Source: a virus
Length of the DNA stretch: 64,000 bases
Virus record (IMG/VR): IMGVR_UViG_3300010334_000029
Location: 62,001 to 126,000 of that record
Direction: 5' to 3' (one strand)
Part shown: in pieces, positions 719 through 59,563 of the stretch
How the letters are laid out: each line of letters begins with the position of its first letter
Position numbering within the stretch: position 1 is the stretch's first letter
The notes under the pieces: generated by a model
What the model was told of the DNA's origin: nothing
What the model saw: only the letters and a program-made list of their open reading frames with translations
Database searches by the model: none
Position numbers and translations under genes: made by a program

Positions 719-719
719 A

Positions 720-13037: not shown

Positions 13038-13045
13038 ATATTATG

Positions 13046-13138: not shown

Positions 13139-13142
13139 TTTC

Positions 13143-13216: not shown

Positions 13217-13222
13217 ATGAAT

Positions 13223-13302: not shown

Positions 13303-13307
13303 ATAAC

Positions 13308-13382
13308 TGGTAGCCCAGACGGGAGTTGAACCCGCTTACAACTGATTGAAAATCAGTCCGCCCGCCGTTAGCGTTCTGGGCC
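13308..13382 (-). tRNA. tRNA-Glu(TTC)
   Basis: Acceptor 13312-13318 with 13376-13382, perfect anticodon stem ACTGA/TCAGT around TTTTCAA, T-loop TTCAACT, encoded CCA. Confidence 0.9.
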
Positions 13383-18494: not shown

Positions 18495-18695
18495 ATGTCT
18501 AAGAAAATTGAACCAAGTGAGACCAAATCCCTTTATGCAATCCCATGCTTGCATCAGAATCAAAGTGTCTTTTTTACAACATTTGATACCAGAAGTGAAA
18601 AAGAAGCCCTTGCCTTAGCATCCTGTATTTACGGAAACAAAGGCAAGGGCGCATTAGTCATCCTCGGAGAAGATGGTTCAATCTTTAAGCTTTAA
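18495..18695 (+). CDS. Hypothetical protein, plus strand (66 aa)
   Basis: AGGAG lies just before the ATG. MSKKIEPSETKSLYAIPCLH..., then an Ala-rich helix and a GALVILGEDGSIFKL strand pair. One of very few plus-strand genes; it ends convergent with, and overlapping by four bases, the SPFH gene. No family recognised. Confidence 0.65.
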   Translation: MSKKIEPSETKSLYAIPCLHQNQSVFFTTFDTRSEKEALALASCIYGNKGKGALVILGEDGSIFKL

Positions 18696-22655: not shown

Positions 22656-23180
22656 ATGAGTATTTATCATAAACATCATATAATCCCACGACATATGGGA
22701 GGAACCGATGATTCAAAAAATTTAATAACCATCACTATAGAACAACATGCAGAAGAGCATAGAATTCTATATGAGAAATATAATAAGTGGGAAGATTATA
22801 TAGCTTGGAAATCTCTTTCCAAACAAATTAACCCATCTGATGCATCAAAACTTGCACATATAATAGGTTCTTATAAAGGTGGTTACGCCAAGAAACCTAA
22901 TAAAGTTCCTGCTTGGAACAAATTAGATTGTTATTGTGTTGGTTGTAGAAAGAAAATTAAACCTTCTTCACCACACATTAAATGTGTTCAAAAAGCTTTT
23001 AATTTAGAACCAACTAAAAATTCTTCTTATTTTTCAAGTGAATATGGTAAATTAAAAGCCAACCAAAACAATTCAATGAGTATATGCCCACATTGTAATA
23101 AAGAAGGACAATATCGTGCCATGAAAAGATGGCATTTTGATAGATGTAAGTTTAATCTTCAACAAGAATCATTCGATTGA
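22656..23180 (+). CDS. HNH homing endonuclease, plus strand
   Basis: 174 residues. YHKHHIIPRHMGGTDDSKNL is the HNH core (His-His and Asn). The second half has two zinc-finger-like Cys sets, CYCVGCRKKIKP...HIKC and ICPHCNKEGQY...HFDRC. Opposite orientation to its neighbours, and its 3' end overlaps the C-terminal codons of the minus-strand gene at 23152. An inserted mobile gene. Confidence 0.88.
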   Translation: MSIYHKHHIIPRHMGGTDDSKNLITITIEQHAEEHRILYEKYNKWEDYIAWKSLSKQINPSDASKLAHIIGSYKGGYAKKPNKVPAWNKLDCYCVGCRKKIKPSSPHIKCVQKAFNLEPTKNSSYFSSEYGKLKANQNNSMSICPHCNKEGQYRAMKRWHFDRCKFNLQQESFD

Positions 23181-44658: not shown

Positions 44659-44907
44659 TTATTTTAAATTACCACGAGATAAAGCGCCAGTAGCTAATCT
44701 TCTTGCAAGGTTTAATGAATTAAGATCATTACCTGCATTTAGAATACCTAAAGCTGCAATAAGCATTAATAAAGAACGTGTATCTGTTTTATCTGTACTT
44801 GCAAATCGGAAGAAATTTGATGAAATTAAAGCTAGTAGTGACTTCTTAGTTTCTGTTGGATCATTTAGATCTTCCGCTTCACTAATAAAGTCTTTAAACT
44901 GCTTCAT
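44659..44907 (-). CDS. Capsid-targeted small protein (82 aa)
   Basis: Start at 44907 after GAGGG: MKQFKDFISEAED, matching the T4-type capsid-targeting peptide with a predicted cut after Ile-Ser-Glu. Then hydrophobic LLALISSNFFRFAST and SLLMLIAALGILNAGNDL. Late box TATAAATA 30 bases upstream. Probably an internal or membrane-active head protein. Confidence 0.75.
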   Translation of the reverse strand: MKQFKDFISEAEDLNDPTETKKSLLALISSNFFRFASTDKTDTRSLLMLIAALGILNAGNDLNSLNLARRLATGALSRGNLK

Positions 44908-45203
44908 TTTAAGCATCCCTCTGCATTTTTCTTATTATTTATAGAGTCTCGGACACAATCATATAGATCAATTACTTTATTAAGTTGATGTGCTACAGAA
45001 TTATAAGCTTGATCATCAGCGGCACCAATTACTTCTCTACCACCCATTGTATTATCTTTAATATCAGGTAGTCGTTTAGCTTTAATAGAAAGATTAGCAG
45101 GAAGTGCTGGGATTACTACTGGCTTAACACCTGGAACCACATGTGCATTATCATGACCACAAGCACTCAACAACAAAAGAAATGGCAAGATTAACTTTTT
45201 CAT
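44904..45203 (-). CDS. Lipoprotein, outer spanin-like (99 aa)
   Basis: Signal peptide with lipobox LLSAC (Cys15); Pro-rich HVVPGVKPVVIPALPANL and a Cys-containing C-terminus (DLYDCVRDSINNKK). Together with 45200-45616 it looks like an Rz/Rz1-type pair. Four-base overlap with each neighbour. Confidence 0.74.
   Translation of the reverse strand: MKKLILPFLLLLSACGHDNAHVVPGVKPVVIPALPANLSIKAKRLPDIKDNTMGGREVIGAADDQAYNSVAHQLNKVIDLYDCVRDSINNKKNAEGCLK
44936..44943 (-). promoter_or_regulatory. Late-type promoter
   Basis: TATAAATA, inside the 3' part of the lipoprotein gene; drives the capsid-targeted gene at 44907. Confidence 0.72.
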
Positions 45204-45616
45204 GGTGTTGGTCCTAGTTCTCTAATTGCATTACGTGCATCTGTTACTGCTTGATCAACTTTGCATTCGGTATAAATTGACTTCTCTTTAATTAAAGTCT
45301 GAATTGTGTTAGTCTGGATAGTTTCTTTTTCAATTCGTTTTGAAGCTTCTTGAACTGCAGTCTTACCGTATGTATCGACAATAGTCTGAAGCTTTTGTTC
45401 AAAGATTCTATTTCGGTTATTTTCTGTTTCAGTTTCTGCTTTAACTTCAGCAACTACATCATTACGACCAGATTGATAAGCAACATGCTTTATATGGTTC
45501 ACATAATAATAAGCACCTATTATAACGGTAATACCAACAAAAAGTTTCCAATTGTTGAAAATAAACTGTCTAATGAGTTTACCAATACCAAGTAAACGAA
45601 GTGCTAAACCAAACAT
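45200..45616 (-). CDS. Inner spanin-like protein (138 aa)
   Basis: N-terminal transmembrane helix (LFVGITVIIGAYYYVNHI) then a long charged coiled coil (VVAEVKAETETENNRNRIFE...TLIKEKSIYTECK). Fits an Rz-type inner-membrane spanin partner of the lipoprotein gene. Part of a lysis group with two holin-like genes. Confidence 0.76.
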   Translation of the reverse strand: MFGLALRLLGIGKLIRQFIFNNWKLFVGITVIIGAYYYVNHIKHVAYQSGRNDVVAEVKAETETENNRNRIFEQKLQTIVDTYGKTAVQEASKRIEKETIQTNTIQTLIKEKSIYTECKVDQAVTDARNAIRELGPTP

Positions 45617-45978
45617 CAGTTACCTCGCATAAAGTCAGTGAGTGATTTACGGCGGCCAGTTGATTGTAGAATTGGATTTCGTTTCTTGGACACACCTGGC
45701 TCACCTTGAGATCCTATGCCAATTGCTGCAATCTTTCCACTGCCGGCATTGTTAGTTGGCATTGCCATATCTTCATCTAACTCAGTAGCCATATAATCGG
45801 CAGCAGTCTGAATATAGTCATATGCTAATGTAATCTTTGATTGAACCCACTCAGGTAAATCAGTATCAGGTTCTAACATATCATGCAGTTGTTTAGAATG
45901 TGAGATAATACCTTTAAGTTGAGACATAACCATCTCACCTTCATATCCATATTCTCTAGAATCTTTTGCTTCAAGCAT
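45616..45978 (-). CDS. Conserved phage module, spanin/head-linked (120 aa)
   Basis: KDSREYGYEGEMVMSQLKGI, HDMLEPDTDLPEWVQSKITL and AYDYIQTAADYMATELDEDM form a well-known stand-alone module that in other phages is fused to head proteins behind a capsid-targeting peptide. Helical; basic C-terminal tail. Function unknown. Four genes overlap here in sequence. Confidence 0.78.
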   Translation of the reverse strand: MLEAKDSREYGYEGEMVMSQLKGIISHSKQLHDMLEPDTDLPEWVQSKITLAYDYIQTAADYMATELDEDMAMPTNNAGSGKIAAIGIGSQGEPGVSKKRNPILQSTGRRKSLTDFMRGN

Positions 45979-46361
45979 TAAATCATCCTTAGTATCTTAA
46001 TTATATTAGCATTCATATCTATGTCACTACTATATATTGAAATATTATTATAGATTATCTTATCTGGTATTCTATTAAGTAGAATCAAAAATGGCTTTAA
46101 TAGTTCATGATAACCATCAAGTTTAAAGAATAACATTTCGGTAGTTGCATCATTAAATACATTATATAGAATCGTTATATGATTTAAAATTAATCGTTCA
46201 CGTAGTTCACCATATTCTAAATATTTAATAAAAAGTCGTTTTATATATTTAAATCTATTTAGATCATCATAGAATTCTTGAGTATTATGGCATTGTGGGT
46301 TATCATAATGTTTTGCAGCAAATAATAGAAAGTTATTTTCATTAACATGATCTAAATTCAT
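45978..46361 (-). CDS. Conserved hypothetical protein (127 aa)
   Basis: MNLDHVNENNFLLFAAKHYD with ITILYNVFNDATTEMLFFKL, found beside structural genes in T4-like phages. Helical, neutral. Role unknown; a T4-like late helper is possible. Confidence 0.7.
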   Translation of the reverse strand: MNLDHVNENNFLLFAAKHYDNPQCHNTQEFYDDLNRFKYIKRLFIKYLEYGELRERLILNHITILYNVFNDATTEMLFFKLDGYHELLKPFLILLNRIPDKIIYNNISIYSSDIDMNANIIKILRMI

Positions 46362-46375
46362 TTTATAGTTCTACT

Positions 46376-46408
46376 TAAAAATGGGGTGGCTGAATTAACA
46401 ACCACCCC
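46376..46408 (-). terminator. Intrinsic terminator after structural gene
   Basis: Perfect 7-bp stem ggggtgg/ccacccc with 12-nt loop, followed on the minus strand by ATTTTT. Immediately after the stop of 46416-47021. Confidence 0.85.
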
Positions 46409-46415
46409 AACCAAA

Positions 46416-47021
46416 TCAGAAAATTGTACCGTCACTGTCACCAGTAATTGAACCCATTGCAACTAGTGTTTCAAGTTGAATACGTCCTGCTCTACCGCCA
46501 GCAGTTCCAGTGATATTTGCAAGACTTCCAAGTGATGCACCACCAGTTGAATTAGCAAATGTAACAGAAGCATTAGATATTGCTGTGGCAGTAAAACCAG
46601 CACCCACAGATGTAATTGATACTGAAACTACGTTACCCAAACCGTTAGTAGCAATTGTAGCAGTTGCATTTGCAGAAACAGCACTTGTACCTGGATTTAC
46701 TGTGATAATATCACCATTGGTGAAAAGTTTACCTGGTGCTACAATAGTAATACCTGTTAATGGACCGGTATATGCTGTGCGCATATTCCATCCGGCATGT
46801 GCAGCCTTAGTACCACCAGAGACTGCATTTGCAGCTTCAACAGTACTAATACCAAACACACCTACAGCTTCTTTCATTGCTACGTTGTTATTTTTAAATG
46901 CACCAAATGTAGTGTTACCAAAAACAGCATTAGCATTATTTGCAGTTATACTAAGATTTACTTGTAGTGGCGTGAAAATTGGTGAATTATTAGATTGATC
47001 TTTATTGCCCCAAAGTGACAT
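46416..47021 (-). CDS. Virion structural protein (201 aa)
   Basis: MSLWGNKDQSNNSPIFTPLQ, then Ala/Gly/Asn-rich low-complexity beta (NANAVFGNTTFGAFKNNNVA). This W-G-N-K-D opening marks a conserved structural family of T4-like phages. No enzyme motif. Ends at a strong terminator. Confidence 0.78.
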   Translation of the reverse strand: MSLWGNKDQSNNSPIFTPLQVNLSITANNANAVFGNTTFGAFKNNNVAMKEAVGVFGISTVEAANAVSGGTKAAHAGWNMRTAYTGPLTGITIVAPGKLFTNGDIITVNPGTSAVSANATATIATNGLGNVVSVSITSVGAGFTATAISNASVTFANSTGGASLGSLANITGTAGGRAGRIQLETLVAMGSITGDSDGTIF

Positions 47022-47047
47022 TTCTTTTCTCCTAAATTAAATTTTAA

Positions 47048-49234
47048 TTACCGACCGTATTTAACTATTTCGCCAGTGTCCTTTGTGCGATGTGGAATAT
47101 CGGCAGTAACTGCTTTGACAAAGTCGGCATGTGATTTATTGGCGGTCTTTTGGAAGTTTGCTTTTTCCTGTGAAGTTTTGCGAGCATCCATATGATCATT
47201 AAAGCGGTCAATGTGGTTACGATGAATTTCTTTTGATTCACCATTAGCAAAGGTTACAGGCTTATTTATTGAAGCAGCTTTGCGTAGTTGAATACCAAGA
47301 GCTGGAACATCTTCTGCTGCCTGTGTCTGACGAAGTTTCCATGCTGCAGAACCTTCCTTTGGTGGGCGACCACGTCCTTCATCTAGATCTGCAAGTGAAG
47401 CTTCGATCATATCAATTTCATCTTGTGAAAGTTCGATATCTTCCTTGATCTTACCACCAGCTTTCATATCCTTGATACTGCTTCTTGCATAATCCTTACT
47501 GTAGCCACCACGATCACGCAGATCTTTTACCGCATCTTTATATCTAGATCTTGTTGGTGATTCTGAACCAATACCTTTCTGACGAACGTGTTGATCTAGC
47601 GCATCCATGTGAGATTTAGCTTGTCTGGTGTCACCAGAAGCAATAGCTTTACCAAGAGCTGCATGTAGTTCTTCTGCTTTAGTCTTTGGTGATGAATTAT
47701 CTACAACATGCTTATCAGCCATCTTATCAAGTGCTTTAGACTTGATGCCACTCATATCACCAGCAGGTGTACTTGAAGTTTTCTTTACAGTTGAATATGC
47801 AGGTCTTGCTTCACCAGGTGCATAGTTAACATAGTTAGACTGCATGTTTGGCTTATTCTTGGTTCGATTTGCAGAAACTTCAGCCCGCTTTGGGTCACGC
47901 TTATATGACTTGATCTCAATATTGTGCTTCTTGTAAGTAGCCTTATCAGTAAGATCACCAGTGTGCTTCTCAATAGCATTCATTACTCTGTGAAGTGCTT
48001 CTTCCTTTGAGTGATGTGGGCTCTGATAATCATGATACTTAGCAGGAATATATTTTTTTGTACGACTATCATATTTACCGGTATTGTGTTGTTGTTGTGT
48101 TCTAGTAATTGATCTGTTACTAGTCTCGTCACCGACACCATACTTTGGTCTACTATCTGGGGAGGAGATATGAACTGCCGAAACTGGTTTACCATTGACA
48201 TGAACTACTGAAACATCACCAGAACTCATAGCCTTACTAAGTGTAGTACGAAGATGACTGTGATTAGGTGATCTACCATGTTCTTCAACTGGTGAATTCT
48301 CACCACCATGTACACTGTGTACAATTGTCTTGATCATGTGCTTTGGTAGACCCTTGAGTGTTCCAGCACCTTCATTGAGTTCAGTTAGATCATAGATTTC
48401 AAATGTTTCTTCAAGATCTTCATGAACAATTCTTGCCGACTTAGTATGCATATCACTTCTAAAGTGATTTAGTGCAGCAAATGCCTTATCTGGATGAACT
48501 TTATGCTTGGTAATACCACCAGTATACTTATTTACTACTTCAATATACTGATGTTTCTTTTTTGCTTCATCAAGATCTTCTACTTCTTCCTTGGTAAGTT
48601 TATCAGCAGCTTTATTGATACCTGTGTGACGCTTTACTACATCTTTAAAGTGTGTCTTCTCACGCTTAGAAGCATCGTTTGAGATAATATCTTTTACCTT
48701 TTGGCGAACATCAGAAGGAGTACCTGTAGTTGCATAATCAATAGCATGGGCTGCATTACGATCCGCACGAGCCTTTTCAACCTCAGCATGGCTCTGTGCC
48801 ATTGAGTTAGCTGCTTTCTTTACATATGAACCTAGAGTCTTCTTTGAAAGTTCATCAAGCTGCTCGAAGTTTTCTGGGAGTTCTGTAAACTGACCCTTCT
48901 TGAGTTTGTAATACATATTCTCAAACATGACTGTAACAATGCCAGTACGAAGATCACGATGGGTTACTTCAGCAAGACCACCATGAATATCTGGTGTATA
49001 TGGTGAATGAATAACTACACGATCAATACCCTCACCACGAAGACGACGAAAATCATCTGCATCAAGCTTATTATTGTGGTTCTTGTCAAGCTTCTTTTGC
49101 TTATCTGAAAGTACCTTAGCTGCTTCACCAAGTTCTTCAAGTGGTGCTTCAACTGATGAATTACCAGCCATAAGATCACGGACGTCTCTTACGAGATCCT
49201 TGCTTAAGCTAGTTAAAAAACTATTATTCTTCAT
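47048..49234 (-). CDS. Large modular head protein (728 aa)
   Basis: Start MKNNSFLTSLSKDLVRDVRD. Modules from N- to C-terminus: basic repeats 100-210; LTEE/VEDLDEAKKKH at about 220; His-rich VHSVHGGENSPVEEHGRSPN at 310-420; NLTDKATYKKHNIEIKSYKR; and a C-terminal DLDEGRGRPPKEGSAAWKLR (about 610) widespread in phage polyproteins. Linkers DLDE|A, ELNE|G and DLDE|G are L-x-E protease-like sites, so it is probably processed in the head. Late box AATAAATA 27 bases upstream. Confidence 0.75.
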   Translation of the reverse strand: MKNNSFLTSLSKDLVRDVRDLMAGNSSVEAPLEELGEAAKVLSDKQKKLDKNHNNKLDADDFRRLRGEGIDRVVIHSPYTPDIHGGLAEVTHRDLRTGIVTVMFENMYYKLKKGQFTELPENFEQLDELSKKTLGSYVKKAANSMAQSHAEVEKARADRNAAHAIDYATTGTPSDVRQKVKDIISNDASKREKTHFKDVVKRHTGINKAADKLTKEEVEDLDEAKKKHQYIEVVNKYTGGITKHKVHPDKAFAALNHFRSDMHTKSARIVHEDLEETFEIYDLTELNEGAGTLKGLPKHMIKTIVHSVHGGENSPVEEHGRSPNHSHLRTTLSKAMSSGDVSVVHVNGKPVSAVHISSPDSRPKYGVGDETSNRSITRTQQQHNTGKYDSRTKKYIPAKYHDYQSPHHSKEEALHRVMNAIEKHTGDLTDKATYKKHNIEIKSYKRDPKRAEVSANRTKNKPNMQSNYVNYAPGEARPAYSTVKKTSSTPAGDMSGIKSKALDKMADKHVVDNSSPKTKAEELHAALGKAIASGDTRQAKSHMDALDQHVRQKGIGSESPTRSRYKDAVKDLRDRGGYSKDYARSSIKDMKAGGKIKEDIELSQDEIDMIEASLADLDEGRGRPPKEGSAAWKLRQTQAAEDVPALGIQLRKAASINKPVTFANGESKEIHRNHIDRFNDHMDARKTSQEKANFQKTANKSHADFVKAVTADIPHRTKDTGEIVKYGR

Positions 49235-49260
49235 TTTCTTCTCCTAGAATTTCTATTGGT

Positions 49261-49268
49261 TATTTATT
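49261..49268 (-). promoter_or_regulatory. Possible late promoter (one mismatch)
   Basis: AATAAATA before the 728-residue head protein (ATG 49234, AGGAG site). Confidence 0.55.
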
Positions 49269-49278
49269 AAAACTAAAT

Positions 49279-49716
49279 TTAACGTTTAAGTGTTGAGCGA
49301 AGTTTCCATTGTTGCTTTTCATATACTTCAAGCAGACCTTCTAGGAAGTTAACAAGCCCATATTGATTGAGTTCATCTGCTATAATATGACACTGAATGA
49401 GTGAAGCATGAACTTTCAGATTATCTTGTGAAATCCGATTAATCATTTCCCAAGCTTCAGGAACAATTGTCTCATCTTGAATACTTGTGAGTGCAAGAAA
49501 CCTACCAAGTGAACCGGGTGCATATGCATTAAGAGCACGAATATGTTCTGCAATATCATCTACATTTTCATCTGCAGTAGTGTATAGTTCTTCAAATAGA
49601 CTATGATATTGTGGAAAATTAGGTCCTTCAACATTCCAGTGATAGTACTGTGACTTAATACGAAATGCCGAAACATCCGCTAGTAGTCTTTTCATAGCTT
49701 CAATTAATTTATCCAT
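49279..49716 (-). CDS. dps: Dps/ferritin-like protein
   Basis: Start at 49716 (MDKLIEAMKRLLADVSAFRI). SQYYHWNVEGPNFPQYHSLF carries the His/Asp ferroxidase-type ligands of Dps, EELYTTADENVDDIAEHIRA the second. Four-helix ferritin fold. Placed directly after the 1538-residue polyprotein (8-base overlap); may protect packaged or injected DNA, or be a head component. Function here unproven. Confidence 0.85.
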   Translation of the reverse strand: MDKLIEAMKRLLADVSAFRIKSQYYHWNVEGPNFPQYHSLFEELYTTADENVDDIAEHIRALNAYAPGSLGRFLALTSIQDETIVPEAWEMINRISQDNLKVHASLIQCHIIADELNQYGLVNFLEGLLEVYEKQQWKLRSTLKR

Positions 49717-52700
49717 TATTAGGGTCTCCAATTTGTTGATCTGTATCACCATTATGGACGTTGCCACTTCTGATGATTTTACGTCCTAGTTTACGAAGTA
49801 CTGTTTTGGCTGGAATAACATTGCCATAAGCATCCATATGTGCTGGAACTACTACTGGTGCCTTTTCGGCGGATACAACATCCTCTTCAATTTGATCAAG
49901 GACTGATGGATGATATGCAAAACCACCTTGCATTTTCATACCTAAATCAGCAGCAGTATAGGTCTGACCAATACCAGCAGCAAAAGCAATATTAAATGCT
50001 TCATCTAGTTTCTGACCTGGTGTTGACTTCTTGTATGTCTTTACCAATGAGTCAGTACCGATTAGTCTTGATGTTGGTTTATCGGATTCATCAAGCTTTT
50101 CGTGATGGTTCACACCAAGAACAGCACCAAGTCTTTTCATACTATCCATATACTTAGCCTGTGATGCTTTACGCTTTTCTGGATCCCATCCTGACTTATC
50201 ACCAGTATAGTTTGCCATATTGTCAGCATATTTTACCATTTGCGCATGTTTATCACCACTTCTAATGATGCGTTCAATATTGTCTCTATAAGATAATTTC
50301 TTATCCTTCGAGAGAAGTTTGACAGCATTAATTACTTCAGGTGTAAAGCCTTTTGCTTTTAGATCCTCAGGCGTGTGTGGAGTATCCTCAAGAGTGTCAT
50401 GTAGAAGTGCTACCTTCTTAGTTGCAGGTCCGAATCTTCTTGTTCCAAATACTCTTTTACCAATATTCATTACCTTTTTAGGGTGGTATGAATACGGAAG
50501 ATCACCATACATCTGACCTTGTTCTTTATCATGCCATCTAGAAATTAACTTTTTGGTTTGGCGTTTTGTTGGATTTACAGCTTCATCTAGTAATTCTCCA
50601 AACTCAACTCCATGTTCAAGAAAGAAATCTAATTCTTCAGAACTAAAGTCAAACTCATCAATAATTTTCTTCTTGATTTGTTGCTGCTTGAACATATCAG
50701 AAGCAGGATTTTTAGGGGGCGCTGCATCATTACTTGGGGTTTGTGGAGTAAGATCTCGTTCTACATTCTGAGTCTTTTTACGTGGTGTTTCACCTCTAGA
50801 TACAGCAATAGGTCTATCGTCATCCTCATGAAGATCTTTATCGGCACCGCCATATGTTCCCTTACCATGAGCAATATAAGAGTTCACGCGAGCCATACCC
50901 CACTGCTGAGGTGTTGTCCCAGGGCGATGACCTGAATTCCAAGCAGCCACACCACGGCGATAAACTTTCTTTAGTGTACCAAGTGAAATACCTGACTTTT
51001 TAGCTTTATCAGCTAGAGCATCTTCATCAAGATTTTCTATGCTCTCACCGAACTTAGCATGGTATGCTTTTGTGTATTTTGACTGTGGGATACCTTTTTC
51101 TCTGATACGCTTATCTCCAGGCATATCTTTATAAGCATCTGGATCCCTATCGGAAAGTTTATTATTTCTTTCAATATGTGCTTTTTTTGCTTTTATTTCA
51201 GCAGGAGTGAGACCTTTGGTATAACTTTTAGGTAGTGTTGATTCTGAAAGATATGATTCAAGATCTTCCTTGAGACCACTCTTTTTGTGCATTACAATGT
51301 ATGTATATTTCTTTTTATCAAGATCTTCTAATTCTGCATCATGTGCGGCACGATCTTTGGATTTTGGAGCAGTAAGTTTACGATCTGCTTTGACCGTATT
51401 TACTTCCTTATTATCTCTATCTATGTATTCTTCATCATCAGATGGCTTCATGTGAAATGTTGTCTTGCTGATAGGATCATATCCATGAATATGAATGCCT
51501 TTATGCTTTCCAACTTTTGCCCATACACTTCTAGCACCTGGTGACTGGTCATTAGATGAGATAATCTTGTTGTGCTTTGTCACAAGGTGCTGGTAGAGAT
51601 GATGTGCACCAAGTGATTTGTCATTAGCAGTTAGAACACTAACTTCTTCAGCACCAGGAGCCGCCTGCTGCTTGGTTGTAAGGTGAATGTTGATTCGCTT
51701 GGTCTTTGGGTCTACTACATGATAGTCATGCATTTTATCTTTTGGATCATAACTATGATAAACATGATGTCCATTTTCTAGTGTGCCAATATGCTTAGTA
51801 CCTTCAATAGTAGAGATATGTTTACCTAGATCTTTACCGCCAAACTTTTCAGTCTTTTTAAATGAACTTAACAGAACCTCATCAAGTTCTACTTCTTCGT
51901 TCTGGTGCTTGAAGTATTGAACTTGCTTTTCACGTTTCTCAGCACCCTCCTTAGTAGGATAAGTACCTAGATTCTTACCAGATGATTTAGAAACTAGACG
52001 GTAACCGCTCTTGACCTTGACTATATGTTCATCTACTGATTCTATTTCCTCATTGGTCTTGTCCATAATTTTGGACTTCTTGAGCACATCAAGAATTAAA
52101 GGTGCCTTAAGCTTGTTATGCCTAGGAACTGCTAGACGGTGTGTAGACTTTGGATGTGTGAATACATCATGGTCGCCGCTTCCACCACTTGCCTTCTTCT
52201 GCCATCCTTTATTTGTAATGTGTGAGACCAGAGCACGGCGATCCATATTCGCTCCGGCCATTTCATCTAAAAAATCTGATTGTACTCCCTCAGAAAGACC
52301 AGCATGTAATTCAGCTGCTTTCTTAAAAGGAAGACCAAAGTGCTTGACATGACCATGCTTGTTCATAGCTTTCCATGAATTTTGCTTTGTCTGACCTTTT
52401 TCAAAATATGCTTTTACATATGGCGTATTCTTTGATTCTTCAAAGTCTACTGATTCCTGAGCAGCTTTTAAATCAGAATTAGATGGTGCTCCTTCCGAAC
52501 CTGGTTTACGCATACGTTCACCCGAACCAGCTTTGATTCTTTTTTGCTTAGCATGAATGTTATCCCACAGACCTCTTTTTTCTTCAAGATTTTCTTCTTT
52601 TACAACTTTATCAACTGTAAAGTGCTTGTAATAAGGATGCTTCTTCATCTGATATTCAGCATTTTCTCGATCAATAGCAGAAAGCTTAACTGTTCCATGA

Positions 52701-54325
52701 CTACGACCATTCTTGCTTACATGAGCAGTAAATTTACCTTCAGTTACTTCTACTTCTTCATTCTTACTACCGTAGTTAACATGAAGATGAGATTGCTTAT
52801 AATCTTTAGTAATAGCAGAATGAGGTGCTTTATAAATTCCATGACCAGTATCTAAATGAACATGAGTAGGTGTAACTTTTTTTACTTTACCAGTATGTGG
52901 GGAATTAGCGTGTACTTTTGTTTTGAGATAAACTTTGTCACCTACCTTAGCTGGAGCTTCATCTTCTTGAAGCTCTACTTCTTCATTTGTAGCCTTAATT
53001 TTCACATCAGGTACTGGACGTCTTTTATATTTTAGTCCAAGTTTACCTTTAGCAATACCCTGAGACTCCATTGATTTTCTAAATGATAGTGGTGTTGGAT
53101 ATTGTTTTCCACCTTCTTTAGTTTTAGCTAGGTACGATTTAAGTGTTGACTTTGAAAGTTCGTGCAAATCAGCATCTTCATTAAAGTATGTTCTACCCTG
53201 ATTGATATATGAGTTTACACGAGCAAATGCGTACTGCTGTTGTGATACTGAGCAATCCTCGTTCCAAGCTTCAAGCCCACGATTATAGACTTCACCAAGA
53301 ATCTCTAGATCAAGATTAGTAGCATCAGCCTTTTTAATAAGAGCTTTAAAAACAGGACTATCAACTTCTAGATCTTCACCGAACTTGCCATATTGGACAA
53401 TGGGAGATCCTTTAGTCTTTGTGCCACCTTTGGCGTTACCCTGAGAATCACCTTTAGTATTTGATTTAGCAATCTTGCGACCGCTAGAATTAATTGGACT
53501 ATCTGAACGCTCACCTGTGGATCCACTATTACCTGGTGCGGAATCACCAAAGTATTCTAGGAACAGGTTATTTAAAGATTCTGACACGTGATTTCCTTCC
53601 GGTGCTCCATGGTTAGCCATTTGCTGTCCATGCATATAAGATTGAAGTCGGGCATATTCAGCCTTCTTGACTTTTGGAATTAGACGCATTGCTAATTTCT
53701 TGATAGCAGGTCCTTTCTTTTCGATAACTCGGTCAATTGCCATCTTTTCAGATGGGCCCATCTTAGCATATTCAGCTTGTGAAACATTAGTAAGTCTGCT
53801 ACGAACAAGTTGTCTTGCCATTGCATATGAACGCTTCTTGATATTTGCTTCAGGCGCCACTTTTTTCTTAGCTCGTTCTCTGGCAATTTCAATTCTTGGT
53901 TCATTTCTACGCATTTCAATAGCACGCTTTTGACGTTGCTGAATGTTTAAAATATTTTCATCTAGGTTTACTTCTTCATTCTTTTGTTTTGCTTTAAATG
54001 TCTGATGTTCTTTAGACATTCGTTGAAGTGCCACTTTAGGATTAGAGTGACCCATATAAACAAAAGTACCCATTTCATGAGACCTTGGGCCATGATTACC
54101 ATTGAAATCGAACGAATAACTAGTAATATTTTTTCGACTTGATACTATTCTAGAACCAGGTTTTTTCTTATCAAGATATGAACTATATGGCTTTATTTTA
54201 CCAATAATTTGTCCATTATGATGAACTTCATAAGTTGCTTTACCTTCTGGGTGAGCAATAGTTTTTTCTAGTCCGGTCTTTTTTAATTTGTAATCACCTT
54301 CAGTAATTTCGTTTATTTTGTCCAT
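49709..54325 (-). CDS. Giant modular head polyprotein (1538 aa)
   Basis: Domains: 1-120 capsid-targeting-like start (MDKINEITE|GDYKL); 120-245 basic helical repeats; 320-400 DUF5824-like (QYAFARVNSYI); 450-520 KOW-like; 580-615 KRGLWDNIHAKQKRIKAGS; 700-752 HicA-like (GDHDVFTHPKSTHRLAVPRH); 765-810 YRLVSKSSGKNLGTY; 1030-1100; 1105-1150 second DUF5824-like; 1250-1400 MESH1/SpoT-like HD (HDTLEDT at 1309-1315, KYADNMAN). Recurring NEEV-x-(L/V)-x-E linkers at 117, 447, 522, 758 and 809 match head protease sites. Probably cut into separate packaged proteins. Confidence 0.8.
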   Translation of the reverse strand: MDKINEITEGDYKLKKTGLEKTIAHPEGKATYEVHHNGQIIGKIKPYSSYLDKKKPGSRIVSSRKNITSYSFDFNGNHGPRSHEMGTFVYMGHSNPKVALQRMSKEHQTFKAKQKNEEVNLDENILNIQQRQKRAIEMRRNEPRIEIARERAKKKVAPEANIKKRSYAMARQLVRSRLTNVSQAEYAKMGPSEKMAIDRVIEKKGPAIKKLAMRLIPKVKKAEYARLQSYMHGQQMANHGAPEGNHVSESLNNLFLEYFGDSAPGNSGSTGERSDSPINSSGRKIAKSNTKGDSQGNAKGGTKTKGSPIVQYGKFGEDLEVDSPVFKALIKKADATNLDLEILGEVYNRGLEAWNEDCSVSQQQYAFARVNSYINQGRTYFNEDADLHELSKSTLKSYLAKTKEGGKQYPTPLSFRKSMESQGIAKGKLGLKYKRRPVPDVKIKATNEEVELQEDEAPAKVGDKVYLKTKVHANSPHTGKVKKVTPTHVHLDTGHGIYKAPHSAITKDYKQSHLHVNYGSKNEEVEVTEGKFTAHVSKNGRSHGTVKLSAIDRENAEYQMKKHPYYKHFTVDKVVKEENLEEKRGLWDNIHAKQKRIKAGSGERMRKPGSEGAPSNSDLKAAQESVDFEESKNTPYVKAYFEKGQTKQNSWKAMNKHGHVKHFGLPFKKAAELHAGLSEGVQSDFLDEMAGANMDRRALVSHITNKGWQKKASGGSGDHDVFTHPKSTHRLAVPRHNKLKAPLILDVLKKSKIMDKTNEEIESVDEHIVKVKSGYRLVSKSSGKNLGTYPTKEGAEKREKQVQYFKHQNEEVELDEVLLSSFKKTEKFGGKDLGKHISTIEGTKHIGTLENGHHVYHSYDPKDKMHDYHVVDPKTKRINIHLTTKQQAAPGAEEVSVLTANDKSLGAHHLYQHLVTKHNKIISSNDQSPGARSVWAKVGKHKGIHIHGYDPISKTTFHMKPSDDEEYIDRDNKEVNTVKADRKLTAPKSKDRAAHDAELEDLDKKKYTYIVMHKKSGLKEDLESYLSESTLPKSYTKGLTPAEIKAKKAHIERNNKLSDRDPDAYKDMPGDKRIREKGIPQSKYTKAYHAKFGESIENLDEDALADKAKKSGISLGTLKKVYRRGVAAWNSGHRPGTTPQQWGMARVNSYIAHGKGTYGGADKDLHEDDDRPIAVSRGETPRKKTQNVERDLTPQTPSNDAAPPKNPASDMFKQQQIKKKIIDEFDFSSEELDFFLEHGVEFGELLDEAVNPTKRQTKKLISRWHDKEQGQMYGDLPYSYHPKKVMNIGKRVFGTRRFGPATKKVALLHDTLEDTPHTPEDLKAKGFTPEVINAVKLLSKDKKLSYRDNIERIIRSGDKHAQMVKYADNMANYTGDKSGWDPEKRKASQAKYMDSMKRLGAVLGVNHHEKLDESDKPTSRLIGTDSLVKTYKKSTPGQKLDEAFNIAFAAGIGQTYTAADLGMKMQGGFAYHPSVLDQIEEDVVSAEKAPVVVPAHMDAYGNVIPAKTVLRKLGRKIIRSGNVHNGDTDQQIGDPNNG

Positions 54326-54364
54326 AACTTCCTCTAATACTAAAACAGCCCCAAGATCAAACGA

Positions 54365-54484
54365 TCAAGAGACTTGTAACTTTGTTTGATTAAGGCTAAG
54401 ACAACCTATTTCTCCGACAACATAGTCTAGTTTGGGAGAAGAAATGAGTGTGTTGCGGGTTGGTACTTGTATTATTCTTTCCAT
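54365..54484 (-). CDS. Small leader-peptide ORF (39 aa)
   Basis: MERIIQVPTRNTLISSPKLD, after AAGGGA; lies between the late promoter and the giant polyprotein, enclosed by an 11-bp inverted repeat (54390-54400 with 54528-54538). Possibly a regulatory leader peptide rather than a functional protein. Confidence 0.45.
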   Translation of the reverse strand: MERIIQVPTRNTLISSPKLDYVVGEIGCLSLNQTKLQVS

Positions 54485-54538
54485 CAGAGTTTCCCTTGGG
54501 CTTATCTGTTATTAAAAACGTGTTTGCCTTAGCCTTAA
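54390..54538 (-). promoter_or_regulatory. Long-range inverted repeat in polyprotein leader
   Basis: ttaaggctaag and cttagccttaa pair perfectly (11 bp) across 127 nt and enclose a small ORF. Could fold the 5' leader of the late polyprotein mRNA. Confidence 0.6.
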
Positions 54539-54543
54539 CAATA

Positions 54544-54551
54544 TATTTATA
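54544..54551 (-). promoter_or_regulatory. Late-type promoter for head polyprotein
   Basis: TATAAATA, about 220 bases upstream of the polyprotein ATG; the gap is an unusually long leader. Confidence 0.72.
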
Positions 54552-54563
54552 CAAATAAGATTT

Positions 54564-54857
54564 TTAACAGTTCCAACGCTTTAGTGATGCAGCCTTACGA
54601 GTTGGACGACCTTTTTCATCTTTCATTGGACCAGGCACACCACTCATACGAGCGCAGAATGACTTACGTCTTTTTGCTGCTTTACCATTTGGGTCTAGTT
54701 TACTTGGTGGTGTTGTAACAGCTGTTTTAACACCTGCAGCTTTAGCGCCTTTTCTAGTTAACCCAGCCCCATCTTCTGTGGATCTTTTATATCCTTTTGA
54801 ATCCTCACCTCGTTCTAATAAGATACATTCTAATATAAAAGCTTTTAATGTTTTCAT
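54564..54857 (-). CDS. Capsid-targeted DUF6321-like protein (97 aa)
   Basis: MKTLKAFILECILLERGED, capsid-targeting start with cut after Ile-Leu-Glu. The rest, GAGLTRKGAKAAGVKTAVTT, KAAKRRKSFCARMSGVPGPM and KGRPTRKAASLKRWNC, matches DUF6321, small basic phage proteins. Lies between late genes; probably an internal head protein. Confidence 0.78.
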   Translation of the reverse strand: MKTLKAFILECILLERGEDSKGYKRSTEDGAGLTRKGAKAAGVKTAVTTPPSKLDPNGKAAKRRKSFCARMSGVPGPMKDEKGRPTRKAASLKRWNC

Positions 54858-54858
54858 T

Positions 54859-55767
54859 TTATGCTAGTTCCTTAATAGTAAATGCAAACCATACGTCTAG
54901 TTTGGTTGAGTTATCAACACGTCTCATACACAAAGTAAGCATATTTGGAGTTCCACCGCCATGCATTGATTTTGGGCCTTCATCACCAGATGTATTCTTA
55001 CCAATAATGATACCACTGTGTCTCATTATTGAACCATTTGGAGTAAACGTGTTTCCTTGATTAGAAGAATATTTGTCTTGATATACACGATATTGACTGT
55101 GAACACCAAACGTAGTCCAAGCAGGTATAGCTGCTCCAGTTATTGTTAGATCACCTTCATACCACTCATACACAATAGTGCTTTGATTAGCGTTGTTGTT
55201 TCCAATTTCATATTCAATAATTTTTATTAAATCCGCAACACTTGCACTATTATTTCTAAAACTAACAACAGGACGCATAGTATCGTCCATAGTCCAACCA
55301 CGATTCGTGTTTATTGCATGATTATTAAAGGCATATAAATCACCCGCTTCTTGTGTTGTAATAACAGTAACAGTACTAGTAATATTTATATTACCAGAAG
55401 TTACAACAACATTCTGTGATGCAGGGAAGTTGCCTACGTTAACAATACCAGTAACATTTGCATTTAGATTGCCTGATGTAATTACTACATTACCACTAAT
55501 AGGCATATACGAAACTGTTAGAATACCACTATTACCAACTTCAGTAATATGGCTGTGTATTGGATTTTCAGGAGTACTAGACACCTGTACAGTTGTTCCA
55601 ACATTAACATTTCCAGTGATTGTAATATTATTGGAACCAAGTGTTACTGGGAACGGATTCACATTAGTAACTGGATCACCATTTACTGTAGCAATCATCC
55701 CCAATTCATATAGTGTCTTACTGTTCTGTTCAACTTTCTTCTGTTGGTCAATTCTCCATTGTGCCAT
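54859..55767 (-). CDS. Beta-rich virion structural protein (302 aa)
   Basis: Repetitive Gly/Asn/Thr-rich beta sequence (GSNNITITGNVNVGTTVQV; GNLNANVTGIVNVGNF) then a globular C-terminal part (VIEYEIGNNNANQST...LCMRRVDNSTKLDVWFAFTI). Typical of phage fibre or head-decoration proteins. No enzyme motif. Exact role unknown. Confidence 0.68.
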   Translation of the reverse strand: MAQWRIDQQKKVEQNSKTLYELGMIATVNGDPVTNVNPFPVTLGSNNITITGNVNVGTTVQVSSTPENPIHSHITEVGNSGILTVSYMPISGNVVITSGNLNANVTGIVNVGNFPASQNVVVTSGNINITSTVTVITTQEAGDLYAFNNHAINTNRGWTMDDTMRPVVSFRNNSASVADLIKIIEYEIGNNNANQSTIVYEWYEGDLTITGAAIPAWTTFGVHSQYRVYQDKYSSNQGNTFTPNGSIMRHSGIIIGKNTSGDEGPKSMHGGGTPNMLTLCMRRVDNSTKLDVWFAFTIKELA

Positions 55768-56024
55768 TATTTCTTACCTTTACCTACTTTCAAGATATTA
55801 TTTTTTGTGTCAGCAGTATTACTATCTTTAACATCACCAGTATTATTAGTGGTAGCATGCATAGCATTCACAGCGTCGCTAACACTAGTATCAGATGCAT
55901 TAAATGCGGCATAACTAGAAATAGTGCCACCAGGTACTCCAGTGACATTACCTAGACCTCTGATTCCACCACCAGTACTATTTGTTGGTAAACTTTCCTT
56001 AATCCACTGACAGAATGTTTTCAT
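55767..56024 (-). CDS. Capsid-targeted small protein (85 aa)
   Basis: Starts MKTFCQWIKESLP, capsid-targeting-like with cut after Ile-Lys-Glu. The remainder is Ser/Gly/Thr-rich (GGGIRGLGNVTGVPGGTISS) with no clear fold. Its start overlaps the end of the 608-residue protein by four bases. Confidence 0.72.
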   Translation of the reverse strand: MKTFCQWIKESLPTNSTGGGIRGLGNVTGVPGGTISSYAAFNASDTSVSDAVNAMHATTNNTGDVKDSNTADTKNNILKVGKGKK

Positions 56025-57847
56025 CTTTTTACCTTGATCTTGCCTGCCATTAAACCTACACGTGTTCGATCCATAAGACCTTTAACTTCCTTATCGGAGA
56101 AGTTAGGACCGACATGTTTCTTAAATGTATTTAGGTCGCCGGATTCCGCAGCAGTTCGCATCTTTGTACCTGATAGACCATGTGAACGATTTTCATCTTT
56201 TGGTAGATGAACATGAACTTCGTCAAACTTGTGACCTTGAAGCTCTGGAATCTTGCCATTCTCTACTGAGTGCTTAAGACCTTCCGCAAACTTCTGACGG
56301 TCATGCCCAAAGTGAAGATGAAGAACCTTTCTACCAGTAGCAGGCATACTCGCATGAGCCTTGGCAATTGTAACACCTGGTGACTTTACTGTTTGGAAAT
56401 CAACCTTACCACCTGACTGCTTGTTGGCAATATCTTCACGTTCCTTATCTGAGAATGCATCAGACTTACCAGATAGACCGATAAACTTCTTGCCGTGTGG
56501 TGCTGCTTCCATTGAACCGCCAATATCAGTATGGTGTCCCATGTGTGGGAATGGTGAAGCGCCTAGATATGAGACGTGGACGTGATGTGTTTCTTCCTCG
56601 TGAACAGGAACGCAGTTAGGAACTTCCTTGCCGTTCTTTTTCTTTTTGCCGATCATTTTATAACCTGTCCAGCAGGGATCATCTTTCATAGCTTCTTTTA
56701 CATAATCACGTGCACCATCTTTATCGTATAGATCTGATCTATTTCTCATACTACGTAAAGCTTTGGCTTCAATTTGTCTAGCATGTTCTCTATTTCTTAG
56801 ACCTAAAACATTAGCAGTCTGTTCTAATGTACGACCATGAATATATCTATGCTTTATTACATCTTTCTCATTCTTATCAGTTAAGCTATTAATAAGTCGA
56901 TGTGCTGCAAGTTTGCGACCTATGGTCGTTTCATGATTCTCACCAGGATCTTGTGCTTCTCTAGCTTCATTAACCGTATCAACCACACCGAGATGCTTAC
57001 GCATATGAGCAAGAGCAGGACCATGATCCATACCCTTCATTTTAGATACGGCACCCTTAAACTTATCGTAGATTGCCTGGTGCTGTTCTTTAGGGATGTG
57101 CTTCTTGATCAGTTGAGTTACACCATGGAATGAATGGATATTATTATGATCGGCATTAGCACCAAATAGCTTCTTGGTAACTTCATGTGGGTGTTGTACA
57201 CCAGGATCAGATTCATCAGTACGTGAGCGAAGACCGTGTGTAATTGAGAACTTATGAGTATCACCGGCAACCGCATTTAGAAGGATTTTGTGGTGAGCAC
57301 CTTTAATTCCTGCCTTTGTGTCTTCCCAGTTTGATCCATGTAAGAATCTCGAAGCTTCCGAACCTGGGTGATTTACACCTTGGAAATCAAACTGATGATG
57401 TTCACCATTCTCATGACGCATAACTGCAGAGATTTCATTACCATGCTTCTTGGTTCCGACAACTGTATACTTACCAAACTTTCTGCCTGGTGTAAGATGA
57501 GTAGCTAGTTTTTCTTTATGTTCTGGTGTCACCTGAGTGTCAACGTCACCAACCATTGGTTTATGCTTTGCAAATTCAGCATGTGATACGTGGTGACCCA
57601 TGAGATCGTGAGTAGAGCCGGTATATGCAGTAGCATCATGAAGGCGCTGATGATCCTGACCGAATAGATGCTCGCCGTGTTCCTTATGAAATGTGTCACC
57701 AATTGCTGTTAAAGCATGGTGAATGTCATGGCGGACCTGATGGCGAGTACCTGCAGTTACCGGAAATGCCGCAGCAGATGTTTCCTGACCTTTTGGTCCG
57801 ACACGGATGTTGCCACCCTCTAGAATAAACGCTTTAAATCTCTGCAT
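56021..57847 (-). CDS. Capsid-targeted protein with sigma region 4-like and nucleotidyltransferase domains (608 aa)
   Basis: Residues 1-10 MQRFKAFILE|G is a capsid-targeting start. 95-180 nucleotidyltransferase-like (MVGDVDTQV). 320-370 sigma-70 region 4.2-like: KDVIKHRYIHGRTLEQTANV then LRNREHARQIEAKALRSMRN, keeping the Arg-Glu...Arg-Gln contacts used by sigma on TTGACA. 385-415 DPCWTGYKMIGKKKKNGKEV, a common phage module. 420-600 cytidylyltransferase-like with HMGH (435-438) and SGTKMR (559-564). A regulator plus enzyme that may enter the cell with the DNA. Confidence 0.82.
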   Translation of the reverse strand: MQRFKAFILEGGNIRVGPKGQETSAAAFPVTAGTRHQVRHDIHHALTAIGDTFHKEHGEHLFGQDHQRLHDATAYTGSTHDLMGHHVSHAEFAKHKPMVGDVDTQVTPEHKEKLATHLTPGRKFGKYTVVGTKKHGNEISAVMRHENGEHHQFDFQGVNHPGSEASRFLHGSNWEDTKAGIKGAHHKILLNAVAGDTHKFSITHGLRSRTDESDPGVQHPHEVTKKLFGANADHNNIHSFHGVTQLIKKHIPKEQHQAIYDKFKGAVSKMKGMDHGPALAHMRKHLGVVDTVNEAREAQDPGENHETTIGRKLAAHRLINSLTDKNEKDVIKHRYIHGRTLEQTANVLGLRNREHARQIEAKALRSMRNRSDLYDKDGARDYVKEAMKDDPCWTGYKMIGKKKKNGKEVPNCVPVHEEETHHVHVSYLGASPFPHMGHHTDIGGSMEAAPHGKKFIGLSGKSDAFSDKEREDIANKQSGGKVDFQTVKSPGVTIAKAHASMPATGRKVLHLHFGHDRQKFAEGLKHSVENGKIPELQGHKFDEVHVHLPKDENRSHGLSGTKMRTAAESGDLNTFKKHVGPNFSDKEVKGLMDRTRVGLMAGKIKVKR

Positions 57848-58806
57848 TACTTGGCTCCGAATCTTGAACTTTTGGCTTTTGCTTCCTTGAAAGCAGGATT
57901 GATGGCTTTGAAGCGAGGTGCTTCTGGATTTGCAGCAGATGGATGAACAACAAGACCTTCGGTTCCAGAACCAAATTTATTCTTAATACCAAGTGATCCG
58001 AGGTGTCTGGTTACTTTATCACTAACTTTTTTCTTGACTGCATTAAACTTGTCAAGCTCTGCGGTCTTTGCTGCTTTATTTTTTGGTGTGGTTCGTGAAT
58101 TAATAAGCTCGTGATTGAGTCCATGAAACTCTTTTACTTCATCTGCAACATCAACATGACCTGGCTTGTGAGCAATCTTATCATCTTCAAAGTTAATATT
58201 AGAATCTGATAGATGTTTCTTGAAGTGCTCCGTATCATGCCCTTGATTTTCAGGTAGTCTTGAATGAATGACAAATGTACCTAAACCTCTTGGCTTCTTG
58301 TATGAAGTATGAACAAACTTGACTTCACCCTTCTTTGTGTCAGATGGGCGAGCAAGAGCATTATTAAATGCTTCACCCTTCACTACAACTTCGTTACCTG
58401 TGCGCTTATATTCTGATGCTAAATGAGCTTGTAATGCTTTATTCTTATGAAGAGCATCATGGAATTTAGCAAATGCTTCAGGTGCGGTAGGGTCATATGG
58501 CTTACCAGTTTCTTGTGCCCGGCGCTTGGCTCGATCAATATGACCTTGAGCTGTACGAATCTTTTCGTCACCAGATCCAGAGTGCTGAGTATAAAAGCCG
58601 TGTTCGTCATGACCCATCTTAAAAGTCTGACCATCGGTCTTTTCAGTTATATGGTGGATTAAAACTTTACCACCTTTTGTGAGATGATGGAACTGGTCGG
58701 TAGAAAGTGAAGGTGTGTCATTACCAGCAGCTGTTTTGGTGGAGTAGAGATGAGGAAGGCCTTGGCGAATTGAAGCCTCAGTAATGAAAGATTTAAAGCG
58801 TTGCAT
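57847..58806 (-). CDS. Capsid-targeted ligase-like (DUF6267) protein (319 aa)
   Basis: MQRFKSFITE|A capsid-targeting start. ITEKTDGQTFKMGHDEHG contains the KxDG motif of ligase/adenylating enzymes (Lys about residue 57); the C-terminal GTEGLVVHPSAANPEAPRF with FKAINPAFKEAK matches motifs IV and V. So an ATP-dependent ligase-like or adenylating protein carried in the head; DNA or RNA repair on entry is inference. Confidence 0.8.
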   Translation of the reverse strand: MQRFKSFITEASIRQGLPHLYSTKTAAGNDTPSLSTDQFHHLTKGGKVLIHHITEKTDGQTFKMGHDEHGFYTQHSGSGDEKIRTAQGHIDRAKRRAQETGKPYDPTAPEAFAKFHDALHKNKALQAHLASEYKRTGNEVVVKGEAFNNALARPSDTKKGEVKFVHTSYKKPRGLGTFVIHSRLPENQGHDTEHFKKHLSDSNINFEDDKIAHKPGHVDVADEVKEFHGLNHELINSRTTPKNKAAKTAELDKFNAVKKKVSDKVTRHLGSLGIKNKFGSGTEGLVVHPSAANPEAPRFKAINPAFKEAKAKSSRFGAK

Positions 58807-58961
58807 CAGTCACCACCTCCGCCAGATGAGCCAGACTTACCAGGTGGTAGATTTTTAATTGTTCCATCAGCCATTCTGATAGGCACATTCTTTACTTTTG
58901 TAGGCTTACCAGAAGCATCTCTAATGGACAGTTCTTCTTTAAATTCAGCAAATGTTTTCAT
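58806..58961 (-). CDS. Small capsid-targeted protein (51 aa)
   Basis: MKTFAEFKEELSIRDASGKP, start closely like the T4 internal-protein sequence, then a Lys/Pro/Gly tail (NLPPGKSGSSGGGGD). TGATG overlap with the ligase-like gene. Probably an internal head peptide. Confidence 0.66.
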   Translation of the reverse strand: MKTFAEFKEELSIRDASGKPTKVKNVPIRMADGTIKNLPPGKSGSSGGGGD

Positions 58962-59563
58962 CGTTTAATAACCTTGGTAGAGCCGTCTGGCTTCACAAAA
59001 TAAGCTTCAAACTTGACATGTGGATATTCATCTTCAAGATCCAGAAATGCAGTTAGATTACTCATTGCATCATCATATAGACGGAGTTTAGTATAATTTT
59101 TAGTATTTATATAACGACGAAATATAACCTTCTTGGCTTCAGCACTTGAATCAAGACCAAGATTACCAGCACGCTCGACGTGCATATCATCAATTGGAAT
59201 TCCATGATCACGGAACGTCTGAAGAAACATATGCTTGTCATCAAAGTCAGCACGGGCAGTACAGATAATAGCACGGCTGTGTGGATTGTTTTTAGCTTTG
59301 ACAACTGCCTTAGCCTTTTCAATCATCCGAACTACTGGGACCGAAGTTCTACGAAAAACTTCGGCGGATCGAAATTCGCCGAAGTCATAGGTTTCCCCAG
59401 GTTTACGCTCGTATGTGTTAAATTCTTGGTTATCTAATTTTCGTATGACTTTGCCGTCCTTAACCACACCGACTTTAGCCTTTGTATGGAAGAGGGTCTC
59501 ATCAATATCGAAGATTGTAAGTGTACCAGAACCTATAAACTCTTTGAATCTTTGTTTTACCAT
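58958..59563 (-). CDS. HAD-superfamily phosphatase with head-protein N-terminus (201 aa)
   Basis: MVKQRFKEFIGSG start, RFKEF-type targeting-like. HAD motifs: TLTIFDIDETLFH (Asp nucleophile pair), RAIICTARADF (Thr), VKAKN region (Lys) and LRLYDDAMSN (Asp pair). Resembles phage HAD phosphatases/Pnkp 3'-phosphatase-like enzymes. May dephosphorylate nucleic-acid ends or nucleotides. ATGA overlap with the 51-residue gene. Confidence 0.83.
   Translation of the reverse strand: MVKQRFKEFIGSGTLTIFDIDETLFHTKAKVGVVKDGKVIRKLDNQEFNTYERKPGETYDFGEFRSAEVFRRTSVPVVRMIEKAKAVVKAKNNPHSRAIICTARADFDDKHMFLQTFRDHGIPIDDMHVERAGNLGLDSSAEAKKVIFRRYINTKNYTKLRLYDDAMSNLTAFLDLEDEYPHVKFEAYFVKPDGSTKVIKR
59104..59111 (-). promoter_or_regulatory. 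Possible internal late promoter
   Basis: TATAAATA inside the HAD gene, 143 bases before the start of the small capsid-targeted gene. Confidence 0.4.

Follow-up and report, generated by a model that had tools for sequence, protein, structure and literature searches.

Candidate head-cargo genes with T4-like targeting tags, and probable cargo polyproteins, in an aquatic T4-like phage

The gene block

The stretch of DNA considered here, which we call the window, comprises 64,000 nucleotides of the IMG/VR virus record IMGVR_UViG_3300010334_000029 (record positions 62001-126000; the record is linear and 141,838 bp long). Its minus strand carries a block of genes in which several proteins begin with a ten-residue peptide, here called the tag, resembling the capsid-targeting sequence (CTS) of the internal proteins of phage T4, and which also encodes two long modular proteins. 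Judged from its sequence, the phage is an aquatic T4-like phage, Kyanoviridae-like: the record has T4-like markers in its baseplate wedge proteins (phrog_219, E=9e-160; phrog_438), a DNA end protector and a baseplate hub, and by the wedge protein its nearest isolates are Caulobacter phage Cr30, Stenotrophomonas DLP6, the Sinorhizobium phiM12-type phages, Methylophilales Melnitz and cyanophages. A cargo gene block is common to HTVC008M, Melnitz, phiM12, C48C1 and S-SM1, several of them with tagged N-termini. We consider it likely that the block in the window is the head-cargo set of this phage, made up of tagged cargo and of polyproteins processed by the prohead protease gp21 according to the four-step scheme set out below. 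Its features are as follows, in window coordinates, with protein lengths in amino acids (aa) and predicted cleavage positions marked by a slash.

44659-44907, minus: 82-aa protein, tag MKQFKDFISE/A; 44916 is an alternative start of its open reading frame (ORF)
47048-49234, minus: 728-aa modular protein, predicted cargo polyprotein, with the cassette FEQLDE/LSKKTLGSYVKKA...KLTKEEVEDLDE/, of a cassette family repeated in relatives
49279-49716, minus: Dps/ferritin-like protein of 145 aa, untagged (Pfam Ferritin, E=7e-21), which several relatives also keep among their cargo genes
49709-54325, minus: modular protein of 1538 aa, predicted to be a cargo polyprotein in which hydrophobic-x-Glu sites link about 18 units; relatives have these units shuffled
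50087-50581, minus: residues 1249-1413 of the 1538-aa protein, an HD domain resembling small alarmone hydrolases, with ELLDE/ before it and EKLDE/ at its end
50825-51022, minus: residues 1102-1167 of the same protein, a unit of the DUF5824 type that shares 70% identity with a gene standing alone, with its own tag, in C48C1
51878-52027, minus: residues 767-816, HIVKVKSGYRLVSK..., a basic unit of 50 aa between ESVDE/ and EVELDE/
52028-52261, minus: residues 689-766, a HicA-like domain (Pfam HicA_toxin, E=9e-5, narrowly missing the curated cut-off; phrog_353 toxin, E=8e-7)
52436-52579, minus: residues 583-630, KRGLWDNIHAKQKRIKAGSGERMRKPGSEGAP, a basic unit found in five polyproteins with differing neighbours
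53555-53956, minus: residues 124-257, a strongly basic, helical unit with a stand-alone tagged homologue in C48C1 (MLSFKQFVSE/V)
54564-54857, minus: 97-aa protein, tag MKTLKAFILE/C, DUF6321 domain
54859-55767, minus: 302-aa protein, untagged, with no family match, flanked by tagged genes
55767-56024, minus: 85-aa protein, tag MKTFCQWIKE/S
56021-57847, minus: 608-aa protein, tag MQRFKAFILE/G, with an N domain, a sigma-70 region 4-like unit, a CWTGYK unit and a cytidylyltransferase-type C domain (phrog_3041)
57847-58806, minus: 319-aa protein, tag MQRFKSFITE/A
58806-58961, minus: 51-aa ORF, MKTFAEFKEE, which retains the targeting positions and has K8
58958-59563, minus: 201-aa HAD-like protein (phrog_415 polynucleotide kinase), degenerate tag RFKEFIGSG
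8427-9002, minus: 191-aa protein, tag MINFKDFLAE/G, apart from the main block; its C48C1 homologue has KFKTYLNE/G

The N-terminal tag

Mutational work on the T4 sequence, summarised in PMC9026906, assigns positions 4 and 7 to targeting and positions 8 and 10 to processing by gp21 after L/I-x-E; Asp at position 10 blocks processing but not targeting (PMC9026906). T4 ipII and ipIII both begin MKTYQEFIAE/A. Scored as M-x-x-[FYLWM]-x-x-[FWY]-[ILVM]-x-E at the start codon, the full tag occurs in six ORFs of the window, with the four T4 key positions 4, 7, 8 and 10 all in register, and the tags of these six genes also fit the narrower M-x-x-[FYL]-x-x-[FW]-[IL]-x-E. The original prediction had listed N-termini of this kind, every one of which is present where it was placed, and had likened them to the T4 internal-protein signal, a likeness that is exact at the four key positions. 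Its count of at least seven tagged proteins comes down to six full matches: the seventh, MKTFAEFKEE, keeps F4, F7 and E10 but has K in place of a hydrophobic residue at position 8 (this ORF starts at 58961 and ends beside the 58806 start).

One could ask whether the N-terminal likeness is a matter of chance, or of a bias shared by start regions, in ordinary intracellular proteins, the more so as this phage is known here from its genes alone. The pattern without its Met is found at 8 of 37,285 internal protein positions in this genome, so that 0.037 N-terminal matches are expected among 174 genes; five called starts carry it (binomial p = 5.5e-10), and in the sixth ORF the tag begins at the second Met. 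A six-frame scan gave, beyond the six, a single further match, at a GTG within a long gene (record position 12657). The parts downstream of the tag are unrelated to one another, and tagged proteins of related phages have been found in virions, as described below. We therefore regard chance as scarcely credible.

The tag is also conserved. The eight orthologues compared for the 319-aa protein all have F4 and E10, with F or Y at position 7 and drift at the rest of the tag, and the tag is kept in orthologues of the 82-aa and 97-aa proteins. The 201-aa protein (MVKQRFKEFIGSG) lacks the Glu, as do its near relatives, and a distant orthologue carries MITFRAFLQE/N.

As to what follows the tag, the sigma-like part that had been proposed is confirmed in the 608-aa protein (Sigma70_r4, E = 6e-10). 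The proposal of a ligase (an RNA/DNA ligase-like nucleotidyltransferase) for the 319-aa protein could not be established: the protein has no sequence match in the PDB and no match to the DUF6267 profile, and its model is of low confidence (pLDDT 59), with non-significant structure matches to RNA ligases. A nucleotidyltransferase-type identity for the N domain of the 608-aa protein was likewise not adopted (model pLDDT 62; weak matches among others).

Tagged proteins in the virions of related phages

Proteomic studies of related cyanophages allow the tag to be compared with virion content. In the virion proteome of S-CREM2 (PMC10665884) all four tagged coding sequences were detected, as against 52 of the 163 tested (Fisher p=0.0096); they are the SAM hydrolase (MKDFDSFLEE), ORF13 (MKDLHSFLTE), a kinase (MKRFDAFLTE) and a cytidylyltransferase (MKNFSSFLTE), and ORF136 (MQTFSMFFSE) was detected as well. 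One of the two tagged coding sequences of S-SCSM1, the NMNAT (MKSFLQFLKE/A), is an annotated virion protein. Pooled over these two fully scanned phages, five of six tagged coding sequences are virion proteins, with a probability of 0.005 by chance. Tagged cytidylyltransferases were also detected in the virions of S-SM1 (T4-GC190, MKKFSAFLNE/A) and S-SZBM1 (S-SZBM1_140, MRFRQFIIE/A), and the virion-detected S-SZBM1_139 contains the CWTGYK unit of the 608-aa protein of the window (51% over 37 residues, E=3e-5).

The cyanophage work left undecided whether the virion cytidylyltransferase, kinase and SAM hydrolase are cargo or contamination; since these virion-detected proteins carry the tag, true packaging becomes more likely. 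The tag thus provides a rule by which cargo can be predicted from sequence, and the rule fits the cyanophage proteomics data. Together with the T4 register, these virion proteins support the originally predicted set of cargo packaged in the head, and we infer that packaging is likely in this phage too. As a separate observation, S-CREM2 (OR473000) has at 7704-10313 a gene annotated as Cas9/Csn1-like, whose virion-detected product has an internal tag-like LRFASFMAE/A near its N-terminus.

Modular proteins and their joints

The two long proteins of the block are strings of units joined at acidic peptides. Tripeptides of the form [LIV][DET]E number 13 in the 1538-aa protein against 3.25 in shuffles, and 7 against 1.6 in the 728-aa protein. 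When the chains are divided at such joints, recognisable units result: a basic helical one, DUF5824 parts, a GLWDNIHAK unit, the HicA-like domain and the small alarmone hydrolase-like domain. By its sequence the last (residues 1249-1413 of the 1538-aa protein) qualifies as a small alarmone hydrolase of predicted activity: phmmer places it with RelA/SpoT-type and small alarmone hydrolase chains at E=6e-7 to 2e-6, it belongs with phrog_990 at E=1.5e-30, and its lpysyHp and llHDtlEDt align to the H..HD..ED motifs.

In relatives these units recur, along with others, in strings of changed order and with repeated joints such as KEEVEQVDE/LSKKTLGSYVKKA; proteins of Melnitz and HTVC008M have several joints. 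In a set of 30 such proteins, hydrophobic-x-Glu lies within 6 residues of 131 of 252 homology boundaries, against 60 expected (2.2-fold), as compared with 1.41-fold for Glu alone, 1.06-fold for Asp and 1.09-fold for hydrophobic-x-Asp. This contrast between Glu and Asp is more telling than the z-score for the boundary motif. The unit cores are mostly basic (positive net charge in 80%) and alternate with the acidic joints. The same kind of unit can also stand alone: the C48C1 counterpart of residues 1102-1167 is a 90-aa gene with its own tag, MITFKKYLEE/K, so that, as read from the two sequences, DUF5824-type cargo appears as a cassette in the window and as a separately tagged gene in C48C1.

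The 608-aa family displays insertion step by step. In orthologues with no insert the outer domains are joined directly (e.g. VNE/ELNE/); those with one insert read VNE/AMKNDPCWKGYE...VKE/; and the protein of the window, whose domains are parted by VNE/, VKE/ and VHE/, has two inserts, VNE/sigma-like...VKE/CWTGYK...VHE/, with more in the orthologue L009. Hydrophobic-x-E is found at most of these junctions of the family; L011 and L014 have ANESYLEE/ and ANESYIEE/. A further comparison concerns the scaffold: gp22 of the relative G003 has an extra unit between two EQIDE sites (L032 and L079, 353-1672), with no homologue among the proteins compared and absent from the scaffolds of two other relatives.

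Since the units are clearly shuffled between phages, the joints might be recombination linkers, short conserved stretches of DNA that serve unit swapping and have no role in cleavage or packaging of the protein. Were this so, identical joint peptides should not be written in nearly random codons, yet EEVELDE differs at 2.96 of 7 codons per pair where random codons would give 3.25, which argues for selection mainly on the joint peptide. Two other joint peptides are somewhat less diverse than random codons would make them (2.33 and 2.20 differences against 3.64 and 3.48). In S-SCSM1, moreover, both proteins with canonical Glu joints, gp280 (with EEVELDE/RTR) and gp089, are annotated as virion proteins, and we hold the linker explanation to be highly improbable.

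A more serious alternative is that the proteins are packaged and lose only the N-terminal tag, the long ones staying whole as polyvalent effectors or core proteins with Glu-rich joints as flexible linkers. The tag evidence itself is equally at home there, phages and plasmids do deliver multidomain proteins, some of them full-length (PMC5512222), and the 1538- and 728-aa proteins lack a strict tag. A merely acidic linker would have no need, however, to prefer Glu over Asp or to place a hydrophobic residue two before the Glu; nor would whole chains lead one to expect units that occur also as separate tagged genes, basic units alternating with acidic joints, or a like joint in gp22 of G003, gp22 being a gp21 substrate in T4. 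We think this alternative rather unlikely, and on the sequence evidence the polyproteins are probably processed by gp21.

Several points, besides the missing strict tag of the two longest proteins and a phage seen through its genes only, weigh against this interpretation. The second tagged ORF of S-SCSM1 (106 aa) is absent from the virion proteins, and the authors of the cyanophage proteomics regard carry-over of virion-detected proteins as possible. Homology boundaries are mutually dependent, so the z-score overstates significance, and several joints have V or F at P3 in place of L or I. Neither the 608-aa nor the 319-aa protein has a whole-length excess of [LIVMF]xE, so that for the 608-aa protein the polyprotein claim comes solely from its series of unit insertions. 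No canonical Glu joints were found in S-CREM2, and the joint is thus not universal in the group; phiM12 gp159, a homologue of part of the 1538-aa protein, is annotated as hypothetical only. Finally, the prohead protease gene expected elsewhere in the genome has no counterpart on this record, a linear fragment, which gave no match to the gp21 (S77) or gp23 families.

Prohead protease and gene order in relatives

Three relatives with orthologues of the 608-aa protein carry both gp21 and gp23, and because of this we take the absence on the record to be an effect of the fragment. In G002 the genes for terminase, sheath, tube and portal are followed, in this order, by those for a cassette polyprotein of 492 aa and a small protein and then by gp21, gp22 and gp23; G001 has two tagged proteins, MKTFSQYIQE/L and the basic MKTFKEFLLTE/V, between portal and gp21 (genes of G001 and G002 other than gp21 and gp23 were named by sequence and order). 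In T4 this portal-to-gp21 slot is occupied by the core genes 67 and 68. Candidate sites in the relatives' capsid proteins, upstream of the conserved region, are LLSE/A, LFE/T and LAE/A.

A scheme for packaging, processing and delivery

In the scheme that we favour, the tagged proteins, made late, would first be drawn into the prohead core in the manner of T4 internal proteins, a step that sequence and the proteomics of relatives strongly support. A gp21-type protease would then cut off the tag after hydrophobic-x-Glu, as suggested by the identity of the motif with that of T4 and by the sites in the relatives' capsid proteins. In a third step both long proteins (1538 and 728 aa) and the central part of the 608-aa one would behave as polyproteins of mostly basic modules of about 30-200 residues with acidic linkers; because the linkers end in the same hydrophobic-x-Glu motif, the gp21-type protease may release the modules inside the prohead. 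The products, lying alongside the DNA in the head, would finally pass into the host on infection, and there the alarmone hydrolase-like, HicA-like and sigma-like modules and the basic units could act at once. We speculate that alarmone hydrolase-like and HicA-like cargo, encoded beside a Dps gene, would lend itself to controlling the host during the first minutes.

A tagged gene block together with apparent polyproteins means that a kit of proteins is probably injected with the DNA. Because the same protease would release the modules, a phage could acquire new cargo either through the shuffling of cassettes that lie between cleavage sites or when a gene receives a tag of its own. We lean, on balance, towards the wider proposal that aquatic T4-like phages deliver injected proteins as polyproteins processed in the head, made of shuffled small cassettes, effector or DNA-binding, with prohead-protease sites between them. 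This would be an evolvable cargo system, any domain between two sites becoming a separate packaged protein. If the polyprotein reading is right, many late proteins of these phages now called hypothetical would be cargo magazines, a large number of unknown domains would be candidates for injection, their N-termini being predictable, and it would be directly testable how phages gain and lose the proteins that they inject.

Other features of the window

Apart from the block, the window has 21 tRNA genes within 298-13382 (minus), among them a tRNA-SeC call at 11664-11735 (anticodon TCA) that may be miscalled or a recoding tRNA. Close together on the minus strand lie a gene of the NAMPT family (NAMPT_N, E=9e-32; NAPRTase, E=2e-55), one with a weak match to the Macro domain and one for a fusion of CTP_transf_like and NUDIX (13872-15242, 15535-15984, 17281-18375), possibly a set for NAD salvage and perhaps counter-defence. 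A Band 7/SPFH (stomatin-like) gene (18692-19516, minus; E=5e-22) has a lipoprotein-like N-terminus, and GIY-YIG and HNH endonuclease genes, probably of homing endonucleases, are at 1465-2145 (minus) and 22656-23180 (plus).

Comparison with known systems

A literature search, largely without subscription papers and preprints, found no description of the CTS in cyanophages or of polyproteins joined by gp21 sites, and no paper naming DUF5824 or DUF6321. As far as that literature shows, the Glu-joined cassette polyproteins would be an undescribed variant, and the tag carriers further cargo of the T4 CTS kind.

A close likeness is to IPI, IPII, IPIII and Alt of T4, which carry the CTS and are processed by gp21: the ten-residue tag, its four key positions and its hydrophobic-x-Glu end are the same. 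The window differs in its cargo, in having more tagged proteins per block and in the neighbouring polyproteins with many internal sites, whereas the T4 internal proteins are small single units. For several sites in one chain there is a parallel in the T4 core, gp22, gp67 and gp68, with several L/I-x-E sites per chain; gp22 is cut by gp21 into several fragments (PMC9026906), and G001 and G002 share the portal-gp21 slot. The core fragments are, however, mostly small peptides that leave the head, while the units here are conserved domains that are shuffled and occur also as separate genes.

The polyvalent proteins of phages and conjugative elements are chains of several domains for which packaging and injection are predicted, with shuffled domains (Iyer et al. 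2017, PMC5512222). The likeness lies in the multidomain chains and the domain shuffling; that class, of two to fifteen domains per chain in proteins that are encoded among late genes or predicted to be packaged, has large enzymatic domains and often its own peptidase, in contrast to the short basic units and prohead-protease motifs of the window. With their many units and a block partly shared with virion genes, the long proteins of the window might be candidates for the class. A further parallel is the cytidylyltransferase/NMNAT block of the cyanophages S-SM1, S-CREM2, S-SZBM1 and S-SCSM1, with its tagged N-termini and shared units such as CWTGYK; HTVC008M, Melnitz and C48C1 have a block of this kind, placed between gp41 and gp61. 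Unlike in the cyanophages, the cytidylyltransferase-type part is here contained within the 608-aa protein, and the expansion of cassettes is larger.

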